Positions 43,632 through 47,141 are shown, counted from the stretch's first letter. The stretch: DNA of 64,000 nt from Desulfurobacteriaceae bacterium (GCA_027051905.1 JALUGO010000007.1:62001-126000); one strand, 5' to 3'. The notes: a model not told the origin generated them from the letters alone. Program-made: numbers and translations.

Positions 43632-43985
43632 TTCGTTGGGTTCTTCAAGTATCTTCAGGTTACCGTTTTTGAACATTTCAATAGCGTTGTCTAAAAACTT
43701 AACCTCTGCTGGAACGAGATAAATGGAAATTCCAAAGGATCTTAACTTTTCAAAGGCTCCGGATCCTATTTCTTTGACTAAAACGGCTTCTACTCCTTTT
43801 TCAGAAAAAGCTCTGGCAATTAAATTTCCCCTTCCCCTTTCAAGGTGTAGTGCCGGGTTTTCAAGGAGCTCCATTTCTCCAGTTTCGGTATTCACTATGG
43901 CAAAAAGGTTTGACTTTCCAAAGTGGTAGTTAACGAGTCTTTTACTGTTTATTTCCTTTTCAATTACAGGTAAAGCAACCTTCAT
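43629..43985 (-). CDS. Dinitrogenase FeMo-cofactor-binding domain protein
   Basis: A 118-residue protein of the NifX/NafY/NifB-tail family: MKVALPV start, YHFGKSNLFAIVNTETGEM, a middle cluster VEAVLVKEIGSGAFEKLRSFGI and an acidic end. Family members bind iron-molybdenum or other metal-sulphur clusters. No nif genes are in the window, so it may handle another metal cofactor. Its position next to the Ni-CO dehydrogenase (149-base divergent gap) makes a role in nickel-cluster handling worth considering, though this is inference. Confidence 0.85.
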   Translation of the reverse strand: MKVALPVIEKEINSKRLVNYHFGKSNLFAIVNTETGEMELLENPALHLERGRGNLIARAFSEKGVEAVLVKEIGSGAFEKLRSFGISIYLVPAEVKFLDNAIEMFKNGNLKILEEPNE

Positions 43986-44058
43986 TGCAACCTCCTAAAA
44001 TAATTTAAATTTAATTGTAAAACTCCAATTAATTGTGTATTCAAATATAGGGTTGGTA

Positions 44059-44100
44059 TTGACATATATCAAGGAAATTCTGCTTTTCGGAATTTATCCT
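44059..44100 (+). promoter_or_regulatory. FNR/CRP-like box and -10 ahead of the CO dehydrogenase
   Basis: TTGACATATATCAA (44059-44072) differs from the FNR palindrome TTGAT-N4-ATCAA at one position. A -10-like TATCCT at 44095-44100 would put the start near 44107, so the box is centred about 41.5 bases upstream, the class II activator position. No good -35 exists apart from the TTGACA inside the box, which has no -10 at 17 bases. Confidence 0.68.
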
Positions 44101-44133
44101 ATGAATTAGAAACTAAAAACTCAGGAGGAGAAG

Positions 44134-46098
44134 ATGTTTGGATTCTTCAAGAAAGGGAACGGAGGAGATGGCAAACAGAATGAGCCAAACTTCTGCGTGG
44201 AGTCTGACCTTGCTACAGGCGTAGGTCTCAAAATGCCATCCGTTCACGAAAGTGTCAATTTCATGTATCAGAAAGTTAAAGAGGCAGGGCTTTCCAACGT
44301 TGCCGACCGTTTTGAGGCAATGGAGAAAGTCCGCTGTAAATTCTGTAAAGAGGGGGTTTCCTGTCAGCTCTGTTCAATGGGGCCCTGCCGTATAACTCCT
44401 CAAACTCCAAGGGGAGTTTGTGGTATAGATGCCCACGGTATTGTTATGAGGAACCTTCTGATTAAAGCCAACATGGGTCTTGCAGCCTACACTTACCACT
44501 GTAGAGAAGCTGCTCTTACGCTTTTAGAAACTGCAAGGGGTAACACCGTTTACGAAATTAAAGACCCTTCAAAGGTAGATGCTCTTGCTCAGATTTTAGG
44601 AGTTGATACTTCTCTTCCTCTTGACGCTAAGGCAGAGAAGGTTGCTCAAAGGGTTCTTGAAACCCTTTCCGAGAACAAGACCTCAACCTTTGTAGAAGCC
44701 CTTGCTCCTGAAAGTAGAAAAGAGGTCTTCAAGAAGCTGGGTATCGTTCCAAAGGGGCCAATGAACGAGCTTGTAGATTCTGTGACCCGTTCAATGACAA
44801 ACATAGATGGAGACTACATTACCCTTGCCCTTGCAGCCCTCAGAAATGGAGTTGCTTCTGCCTTTGGAAGCCTTGTTCCCCTTGAGATGATCCAGGATGC
44901 TCTTTACGGAACTCCATCTCCTCACGAGTGCACAGTTGACTTTGGCGTTCTCGATCCAGACTACGTTAACATCTTGCCAAACGGTCATGAACCTTTTGTC
45001 GGTATGGCTCTTATTAAACTTGCCCAAGATGAAAAGTTTCAGCAGATGGCTAGAGAGGCTGGAGCTAAAGGTATAAGAATAGTTGGTTCTATTGAAACCG
45101 GCCAGGAAATAATGGCACGGGTTGAGTGTGATGATGTTTTTGCAGGTTTGACTTCAAACTGGATTTCCATTGAATACTTCCTCTCAACCGGAGCGGTTGA
45201 CGCTTTTGTTATGGATATGAACTGTTCCCTTGCGAACCTGAAGGAGTATGCAGACAAATATACCTTTAAACTAATTGCCGTTTCAAACATTATTGGCGTT
45301 CCCGGTTCAATCAGGCTTGAGTATAAGCCAGGAAACGAAGCGAAGGTAGCTGAAGAGATAATCAAGCTGGCTATTGAGAACTTTAAGGAGAGGAGGAATA
45401 AGCAAAAGGTTGACGTTTCTAAGTTCAGACAGAAAGCCCTTGTTGGATTCTCTGCTGAAGCTATAGTTAACGCCCTTGGTGGAAGCCTTGATCCACTCCT
45501 TGAGGTTATTAAGAGCGGTGATATTAAAGGAATTGCGGCTCTCGTTAACTGCACCTCCCTCGGAAATGGGCCTCAGGACAGCGTAACAGTTCAGATAGCC
45601 AAAGAGCTTATCAAGAGAGACATTCTTGTTATTGGTGCCGGTTGCGGTAACGCCGGTATGCAGAAGGCTGGCCTTGAAACGGTTGAAGCAGCTGAAAAGT
45701 ATGCAGGTCCAAAACTTGCAGGTGTATGTAAGGAACTTGGAATTCCTCCTGTTCTTTCCTTTGGAACCTGCACAGATACAGGCCGTATCATAATGACAGC
45801 AGTAGCTATAGCTAACGCTCTTGGTGTAGATCCTTCTCAGCTTCCGGCTGTTGTTACGGCTCCTGAATACATGGAGCAGAAGGCAGTAATTGATGGTTTC
45901 TCTGCAGTTGCTATGGGCTTCTATACACATGTTTCTCCTGTTCCCCCTGTTACAGGATCAGACAAAGTTGTTAAGCTCCTGACCGAGGAAGTGGAAGGAC
46001 TTACAGGTGGTAAGATTGCAGTTGGGGATGATCCTGTTAAAGCTGTTGATGGAATGGAAGAGCATATATTGAAGAAGAGGGAACTCCTTGGTATATAG
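44134..46098 (+). CDS. cooS: Ni-dependent anaerobic CO dehydrogenase catalytic subunit
   Basis: A 654-residue homodimeric enzyme oxidising CO to CO2 at a NiFe4S4 cluster. The B/D-cluster cysteines lie in RCKFCKEGVSCQLC (Cys68, 71, 77, 80) and GPC (Cys85). C-cluster ligand regions are ILPNGHEP (His), DMNCSLAN, NCTSLGN, GAGCGNAG and FGTCTDTGR. The length and motif set are those of stand-alone CooS proteins. No acsB or cooF is adjacent, so the electron acceptor is elsewhere. It may serve CO-dependent energy metabolism or CO detoxification. AGGAGGAG lies four bases before the ATG. It is flanked by a strong terminator and a Crp/Fnr regulator gene. Confidence 0.95.
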   Translation: MFGFFKKGNGGDGKQNEPNFCVESDLATGVGLKMPSVHESVNFMYQKVKEAGLSNVADRFEAMEKVRCKFCKEGVSCQLCSMGPCRITPQTPRGVCGIDAHGIVMRNLLIKANMGLAAYTYHCREAALTLLETARGNTVYEIKDPSKVDALAQILGVDTSLPLDAKAEKVAQRVLETLSENKTSTFVEALAPESRKEVFKKLGIVPKGPMNELVDSVTRSMTNIDGDYITLALAALRNGVASAFGSLVPLEMIQDALYGTPSPHECTVDFGVLDPDYVNILPNGHEPFVGMALIKLAQDEKFQQMAREAGAKGIRIVGSIETGQEIMARVECDDVFAGLTSNWISIEYFLSTGAVDAFVMDMNCSLANLKEYADKYTFKLIAVSNIIGVPGSIRLEYKPGNEAKVAEEIIKLAIENFKERRNKQKVDVSKFRQKALVGFSAEAIVNALGGSLDPLLEVIKSGDIKGIAALVNCTSLGNGPQDSVTVQIAKELIKRDILVIGAGCGNAGMQKAGLETVEAAEKYAGPKLAGVCKELGIPPVLSFGTCTDTGRIIMTAVAIANALGVDPSQLPAVVTAPEYMEQKAVIDGFSAVAMGFYTHVSPVPPVTGSDKVVKLLTEEVEGLTGGKIAVGDDPVKAVDGMEEHILKKRELLGI

Positions 46099-46134
46099 TT
46101 GGTATCTTCATCTCCTCCCTCCCAGTGAGTGTTA

Positions 46135-46164
46135 CCCTCCCCATTTTGGGGAGGGCTCTTTATT
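46135..46164 (+). terminator. Strong intrinsic terminator after cooS
   Basis: CCCTCCCC and GGGGAGGG perfect arms, loop ATTTT, then CTCTTTATTTT. It starts 36 bases after the cooS stop and separates it from the YgbA-type gene. Confidence 0.88.
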
Positions 46165-46187
46165 TTGGAGATGGCTGGAGGACTGGG

Positions 46188-46514
46188 TTGAGTGCTATAG
46201 AGAAGGAAAAAGAAACGATCAGAAAGATGGTTGAAATTTTTTGCTGGAAAAAGCACGGTAGTAACAGGGGAGAGTTGTGCCCGGAGTGTGAATTACTTTT
46301 AAGTTACGCCTTTAAACGCTTGGAACTTTGCCCTTTTGGTGATGAAAAACCAACTTGTAAAAAGTGTCCGATTCACTGCTATAAGCCTGATATGAGGGAA
46401 AAAGTGAAGCAAGTTATGAAATTTAGCGGCCCAAGGTTGCTTATTTACGATCCTATTGGCTGGTTGCTTCATGAAATAAAGGAGAAATTCTCCTTAAAAG
46501 GCAATATCTCTTAA
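46188..46514 (+). CDS. YgbA-type (nitrous-oxide-stimulated promoter family) cysteine-rich protein
   Basis: A 108-residue protein with the family cysteine pattern: FCWKKHG, LCPECELLLSYA, LELCPFGDEKPTCKKCPIHC and YKPDMREKVKQVMKFSGPR. E. coli YgbA is induced by nitrosative stress and supports growth during it. The TTG start has GGAGG six bases upstream; an earlier GTG lies before the terminator hairpin and is unlikely. The many cysteines suggest a metal or iron-sulphur site. It converges with the Crp/Fnr gene, overlapping 21 bases. Confidence 0.86.
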   Translation: MSAIEKEKETIRKMVEIFCWKKHGSNRGELCPECELLLSYAFKRLELCPFGDEKPTCKKCPIHCYKPDMREKVKQVMKFSGPRLLIYDPIGWLLHEIKEKFSLKGNIS

Positions 46515-47141
46515 GGCTTCAAGGTTCTTTATTCTTATTCTACTTTTTGACTTTTCTATTATTCCGAGTTCTTTTAGTTTGCCGAGCATTCTTGATACAG
46601 TTTCTTTAGTTAAGCCGAGTTCCATGGAAGCCATACTGGTGCTAAAAGGTATTTCTTTTTCCTCTAACTCTTCATATTTTCTCAGTATGTAAGAAGCAAC
46701 TTTAGAAAGGGCGTTCTTGAGTGATAAGTTTTCTATAACGTTTGTAAGGTGTATAAGTCTTTGAGCCATTACTGATAGTAGTTTCATTCCGATTTCGGGG
46801 TCTTCTTTTAGAAGCTGGAGAAAGCGGTGTCTGGGTATTATGAGGATTTCTGAGTCCTCGATAGCCTCTGCCCAGGCCGGAAAATTTTTTCCTGTGAAAC
46901 TGGCAGCTTCTCCAAAGAGAGCGGGTTTATCAAAAACCTTTATTATCTGTTCTTTCCCTTTTGCAGTTTTGAAAACTTTTACTTTTCCCTTCCTTAGTAT
47001 GAAAAAGTGATCACCTTTTTCTGAAGGGTTGAATATGACTTCCCCTTTTAAGTAGTTTTTTGAATATGAAATTTTTTTTATTCTTTCAATTTGATTTTCT
47101 GAGAGCCCGCTAAATAGAGGTATTTCTTTTAAAAACTCCAT
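46494..47141 (-). CDS. Crp/Fnr-family regulator lacking cysteines
   Basis: A 215-residue regulator with an N-terminal cyclic-nucleotide-binding-like barrel (about 10-115), a long dimer helix (about 118-140) and a C-terminal winged helix. Its recognition helix contains TKETVSRMLGKL; the E-x-x-S-R pattern is that of FNR, which reads TTGAT half sites. There is no cysteine in the protein, so it cannot hold an FNR-type iron-sulphur cluster; haem (CO or NO), as in CooA or Dnr, is a possible alternative. It is next to cooS and the YgbA-type gene, and an FNR-like box lies before cooS. Confidence 0.9.
   Translation of the reverse strand: MEFLKEIPLFSGLSENQIERIKKISYSKNYLKGEVIFNPSEKGDHFFILRKGKVKVFKTAKGKEQIIKVFDKPALFGEAASFTGKNFPAWAEAIEDSEILIIPRHRFLQLLKEDPEIGMKLLSVMAQRLIHLTNVIENLSLKNALSKVASYILRKYEELEEKEIPFSTSMASMELGLTKETVSRMLGKLKELGIIEKSKSRIRIKNLEALRDIAF

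Follow-up and report, generated by a model that had tools for sequence, protein, structure and literature searches.

A predicted CooS-V-type hybrid-cluster enzyme and a putative HcpR/DNR-like regulon in the Desulfurobacteriaceae

Genes and regulatory sites of the cooS locus

The analyzed window, a 64-kb stretch of DNA, comes from contig C7 of a Desulfurobacteriaceae genome of 1.36 Mb that is about 84% complete. It contains the cooS gene (44134–46098, plus strand; ATG start, 654 aa), which is followed on the same strand by ygbA (46188–46514) and, in convergent orientation, by the gene of a Crp/Fnr regulator (46494–47141, minus strand). A NifX/NifB-like gene (PF02579; 43629–43985, minus strand) is divergent from cooS, an arrangement found in nearly all of genera g1–g6.

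The upstream region of cooS contains the box TTGACATATATCAA (44059–44072, plus strand), an HcpR/FNR-type palindrome at the class II position with its centre at about −41.5. The box is unique in the window, its two matches being the two strands of the same site, and shuffled sequence gives a mean of 0.29 matches. The −10-like hexamer of the cooS promoter, TATCCT (44095–44100, plus strand), follows after a 22-bp spacer. Across 19 genomes the −10 score is highest when the spacer measures exactly 22 bp (3.89 of 6; the next value is 3.16). Such a distance from box to −10 is typical of class II activators whose site has its centre at −41.5. An FNR-type box at this position had been proposed from the window sequence, and the comparison of genomes bears it out, since every one of the 22 Desulfurobacteriaceae genomes has the box ahead of the cooS transcription unit. 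It directly precedes cooS in 19 of them; in two (G019 and G021) it precedes a cupin gene that starts the cooS operon, and in G015 it was found on the contig carrying an N-terminal cooS fragment. The family consensus is TTGAYnTAnRTCAA, i.e. TTGA(C/T)nTAn(G/A)TCAA; the chance expectation for TTGAYnnnnRTCAA is below 0.001 per 100 bp. Such conservation is far from chance and, judged by it, the box is real and functional. The possibility that TTGACA is a sigma-70 −35 element of cooS was rejected, as no usable −10 is found at 15–19 bp and the palindrome itself is conserved.

A conserved TTCAAATATTG-like element, here TTCAAATATAG (44040–44050, given without strand), is located 8 bp upstream of the box. 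The gap is exactly 8 bp in 13 of the 19 genomes and 7 bp in one more. This element could be either an UP-element contacted by the alpha-CTD at the cooS promoter or the −10 region of the divergent gene. The region 43985–44072 also holds the minus-strand promoter-like pair TTGATA-17-TATATT, in which the box serves as the −35 element. Since the predicted −35 of the NifX-like gene overlaps the box, repression of this gene by the regulator may accompany the activation of cooS.

The ygbA gene belongs to the YgbA_NO (nitrous oxide-stimulated promoter) family. Its best start is TTG at 46188, judged by the ribosome-binding site GGAGGA (46177–46182). The protein matches PF11756 with an E-value of 3.5e-37 (127.5 bits; gathering cut-off 25) and also exceeds the cut-off of NF007714. 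In all 22 genomes ygbA is single-copy and always adjoins or follows cooS; no YgbA was found beside CooS-V in the loci examined outside the family. In enterobacteria, ygbA and hcp both belong to the NO-responsive NsrR regulon. The suggested link to nitrosative stress is supported. Unlike its NsrR-regulated counterpart, ygbA of the Desulfurobacteriaceae is tied to a Crp/Fnr box and adjoins the gene of an enzyme with the CO dehydrogenase (CODH) fold.

The spacer between cooS and ygbA contains a strong hairpin with a U-rich tail (46135–46155, plus strand) that resembles a terminator or attenuator. Hairpins at this place are strong in all 20 family loci examined, and their stems vary in sequence. 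Because of this hairpin, we suggest that read-through from cooS to ygbA is attenuated. In several family loci CTCCTCC flanking the hairpin is complementary to the ribosome-binding site of ygbA and could pair with it. CTCCTCC before the hairpin was dropped as a candidate for a special anti-Shine–Dalgarno element, as a similar stretch precedes another terminator of the window (43605).

Active site of the cooS product

The window enzyme scores 786.5 bits with the TIGR01702 profile (cut-off 478). Its closest solved structure is 7b7q (674 bits; 418 bits for the runner-up), which is CooS-V of Carboxydothermus hydrogenoformans, with 51% identity to the window enzyme. The hybrid cluster of CooS-V is of the [4Fe-3S-nO] type; the enzyme is inactive with CO and CO2 and reduces NH2OH slowly, and its defining change is the replacement of Cys295 by Glu (PMC9311411). 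Turnover of NH2OH by the C. hydrogenoformans protein is poor, its catalytic NO reduction is not above background, and its redox potentials are about 300 mV below those of Hcp (PMC9311411). A C295E variant of CODH-II is Ni-deficient, and its CO oxidation is abolished (PMC9311411).

The same replacement is seen here. Residue E321 of the window enzyme corresponds to Glu295 of CooS-V and to Cys295 of CODH-II, and it is Glu in all 22 family genomes, including that of T. ammonificans (G013, taken to be Thermovibrio ammonificans HB-1). In the same alignment true CODHs retain Cys (the second copy in G007, 6elq and 6t7j). The Cys295 to Glu change thus breaks the full C-cluster ligand set of a Ni,Fe CO dehydrogenase (His and five Cys). 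The second change of CooS-V, Gly41 to Cys (C71), is present in all sequences that cover the position. The predicted hybrid-cluster ligands H285, E321, C364, C473, C504, C546 and E581, with N363 in the second sphere, are those of CooS-V. Of these, E581 (Glu556 of CooS-V, Glu494 of Hcp) is kept in 22 of 22 genomes, and H285, C364, C473, C504 and C546 are likewise conserved in the family, as is the Cys pair C68/C71 predicted for the bridging cluster; C77, C80, C85 and C96 are predicted to bind the B-cluster. The enzyme falls into clade D (group D-1), the HCP-identical active site of which was remarked on earlier (PMC6344411).

The family cooS product therefore resembles a CODH in overall sequence and not at the active site, and on these residues the name CO dehydrogenase is a misnomer for a predicted hybrid-cluster enzyme of the CooS-V (group D-1) class. 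The CO dehydrogenase activity assumed in the sequence-only reading finds no support in the active-site residues or in the closest structure, which is that of a protein without CO activity.

The genomic setting differs from that in the description of CooS-V, according to which the gene is always accompanied by further CODH genes and its contexts show no obvious links to C1 metabolism (PMC9311411). In most Desulfurobacteriaceae genomes, by contrast, no CODH-fold protein other than this enzyme was found, and its operon and regulon are conserved. No second CooS besides the CooS-V type was found in 20 of the 22 genomes, and acetyl-CoA synthase (cdhC) was found in none of the 22. Canonical Hcp (TIGR01703) is above the cut-off in none of the 22 genomes either; the window enzyme itself reaches only 50.7 bits with this profile (cut-off 360.8). 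Given the hybrid-cluster active-site residues, the neighbour associated with NO stress and the single dedicated switch protein, the enzyme is more likely to act in defence against reactive nitrogen than in carbon fixation.

The regulator, its box and its regulon

The regulator gene directly follows ispD and encodes a cysteine-free protein of 215 aa with a K-ETVSR recognition helix. Both the ETVSR helix and the lack of cysteine agree with what had been noticed in the window. The regulator is the only HTH_Crp_2 protein over the cut-off in each of the 22 genomes. In genera g1–g6 its gene is convergent to cooS–ygbA and directly behind ispD; in genus g7 it closes the cooS operon. With one such regulator per genome and a conserved box, the two belong together by comparative evidence, as had been supposed.

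One or two non-conserved Cys residues occur in 3 of the 22 orthologues, and neither a Cys nor an invariant His is conserved among them. An FNR-type Fe-S sensor, already doubted from the window protein, is excluded by the lack of a conserved Cys. Met125 is invariant in 18 of the 22 orthologues and is lost in the outlying genus. HcpR itself uses a Met together with a second ligand that is not conserved (PMC12750200), and the missing invariant His is for that reason not decisive.

Among characterized gas sensors the regulator is most similar in sequence to DNR (74 bits), followed by CooA (52 bits) and FNR (46 bits). A structure model (pLDDT 86, pTM 0.57), adequate for the fold but not for the ligand pocket, gave TM values of 0.61 with DNR, 0.57 with HcpR and 0.40 with CooA; ranked by E-value, the top fold match is 4ev0, a Crp-type protein of Thermus. 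Both comparisons place the regulator nearer to DNR and HcpR than to CooA. With DNR, the NO sensor of P. aeruginosa, it shares the linker motif E..LSLKNA and the Crp/Fnr fold. It differs from DNR in having about 28% identity, a different regulon and no identifiable haem ligand. Also common in the family are short proteins of about 160 aa that match the sensor domain of the regulator but lack a DNA-binding domain (G000:C4:3640-4023 and relatives).

The family box equals the HcpR motif wyTTGACnnnnGTCAArw, published for a regulon with hcp and the ferredoxin gene frdX as core targets and known from δ-proteobacteria and cyanobacteria (PMC1274295). According to the published specificity rule, Arg180 of the regulator goes with G at box position 3 (PMC1274295). 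Outside the family, Crp/Fnr genes were found in the fetched flanks of five CooS-V loci. R180 (R-E-T) goes with the box GTGAYnnnnRTCAC at three of them (L139, L150 and L152) and S180 (S-E-T) with TTGACTTAAGTCAA at L156; the Desulfurobacteriaceae regulators have K/V-E-T and a TTGAY box. Where a box is visible, regulators linked to CooS-V follow the residue-180 rule.

In genome-wide searches with the box pattern, conservation of an intergenic site was seen only before cooS and before a ferredoxin gene. The latter encodes an 83-aa protein with two [4Fe-4S] clusters and has a perfect box about 85–110 bp upstream in ten genomes (G000, G002–G006, G008, G009, G013 and G020). Two genomes have a site with one mismatch, and the remaining readable genomes a poorer site or no site at all. 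The gene lies behind a response-regulator-like gene and is followed by a second ferredoxin-like gene. This two-gene operon (L234:6682-7370 on contig C9 of G000; L235 near 1484 in G013) is a probable second member of the regulon. The likeness to the HcpR regulon of δ-proteobacteria and cyanobacteria comprises the motif TTGACnnnnGTCAA, a Crp/Fnr regulator, and targets encoding a hybrid-cluster enzyme and ferredoxin. The difference lies in the target, which is CooS-V in a family that lacks Hcp, and in the constant partner YgbA.

Another recurrent box, inside a gene read as accC, was discarded as a codon coincidence in coding sequence. Perfect boxes also adjoin genes that look, by eye, like outer-membrane efflux genes in G012 and G009 (L098 and L103); the gene across the box there is transporter-like or ArsR-like. 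In two g7 genomes (L100 and L101) a perfect box stands before a secreted-protein gene that, again by eye, is DUF4198-like and possibly serves nickel uptake.

Nitrogen-oxide defence and competing explanations

These observations are best explained by an HcpR/DNR-like regulon in which a CooS-V-type enzyme replaces Hcp in nitrogen-oxide defence, to which we assign a probability of roughly 0.63. Nitrogen-oxide stress would activate the regulator, probably via NO bound directly or through a cofactor. The regulator would then bind the box and switch on cooS, the ferredoxin operon and, through read-through from cooS, ygbA. Low-potential electrons from ferredoxin could allow the [4Fe-3S-nO] cluster to reduce NO or a hydroxylamine-type species, YgbA would serve some repair or protection step, and the divergent NifX-like gene would probably be occluded while the box is filled. 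The main reservation is twofold: catalytic NO reduction went undetected in the C. hydrogenoformans enzyme, and genomes that lack a NapA-like nitrate reductase (G007, genus g7) have the unit too. Endogenous nitrate reduction can therefore not be the sole source of the signal, and a link to nitrate respiration via NapA is at most partial. Also counted against nitrogen-oxide defence are the missing invariant haem ligand of the regulator, the hairpin that splits cooS and ygbA, the absence of YgbA near CooS-V outside the family, and the ferredoxin box being less than universal.

The same enzyme and regulator–box pair might instead have a signal and a substrate other than nitrogen oxides, such as low-potential redox stress in general, peroxide or sulfur species that abound at vents. 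The low potentials and undetected NO reduction of CooS-V (PMC9311411), the persistence of the unit without NapA and the recurrence of small cupin genes near CooS-V agree with such a signal. The HcpR-type motif, the ferredoxin co-target and the YgbA partner, however, point to known NO/nitrite regulons, and we regard a non-nitrogen signal as unlikely, if a serious contender. It is quite improbable that the regulator is a ligand-free Crp-type activator and the box only sets the basal promoter level. Its best fold match by E-value, its contiguity with the housekeeping gene ispD and its lack of conserved ligand residues would fit this, but a dedicated stress-type regulon of one regulator and two targets over seven genera is unusual for a constitutive factor, and in genus g7 the regulator sits in its own target operon.

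The two explanations that involve carbon monoxide fare worse. Theam_1337 of T. ammonificans was proposed to be a true Ni,Fe CO dehydrogenase that feeds the reductive acetyl-CoA pathway, and the protein was found in the proteome alongside folate enzymes (PMC5441870). The TIGR01702 equivalog match speaks for this proposal as well, but it is very improbable here and already largely refuted by the active-site residues, namely Glu at the Cys295 position in every genome, a substitution that leaves CODH-II Ni-deficient and without CO oxidation. No acetyl-CoA synthase was found either, and the regulator and neighbouring genes are not carbon-metabolism genes. Control of CO oxidation by a haem-based sensor of CO (and NO), as envisaged in the sequence-only reading, draws on the cooS annotation and on the Crp/Fnr fold common to the regulator and CooA. 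It is hardly credible given an enzyme that is not a CODH, a regulator without invariant His or Cys, and CooA ranking below DNR by both sequence and fold. The box, which is of the HcpR/FNR and not the CooA type, counts against it too. Of the gas-responsive unit imagined to combine CO oxidation with NO defence, the NO-defence side is thus retained and the CO-oxidation side is lost; the supposed CO half is probably itself part of the nitrogen-oxide side.

In a wider sense, a hybrid cluster may have evolved independently on the CODH scaffold and taken over the role of Hcp in nitrogen-oxide defence in the Desulfurobacteriaceae, aided by ferredoxins, YgbA and an HcpR-like switch of its own; we consider the chances of this evolutionary scenario to be even. 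If true, a second Hcp system would have arisen by convergence, and CooS-V would for the first time have an assignable physiological role. The enzyme class (CooS-V) and the regulatory logic (HcpR type) are already known; new are their combination, the absence of Hcp and the constant partnership with YgbA. Also new is the consequence for T. ammonificans, for which the published CODH argument loses a pillar. A 2026 genomic-context survey, which saw no clear pattern, left clade D aside (PMC13056359). The regulator, box and YgbA partner conserved over the 22 genomes, together with the ferredoxin co-target, offer a specific and testable context for the role of CooS-V and clade D. The annotation 'carbon monoxide dehydrogenase' is misleading throughout this family from hydrothermal vents, whose enzyme has active-site residues of another kind, those of an iron–sulfur–oxygen enzyme.

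Small cupin genes are found repeatedly beside CooS-V (L156:3531-3917, L053, L055, L164 and L166). The hosts of these cupin genes are genus g7, an Actinomycetota MAG and Thermoplasmata MAGs.
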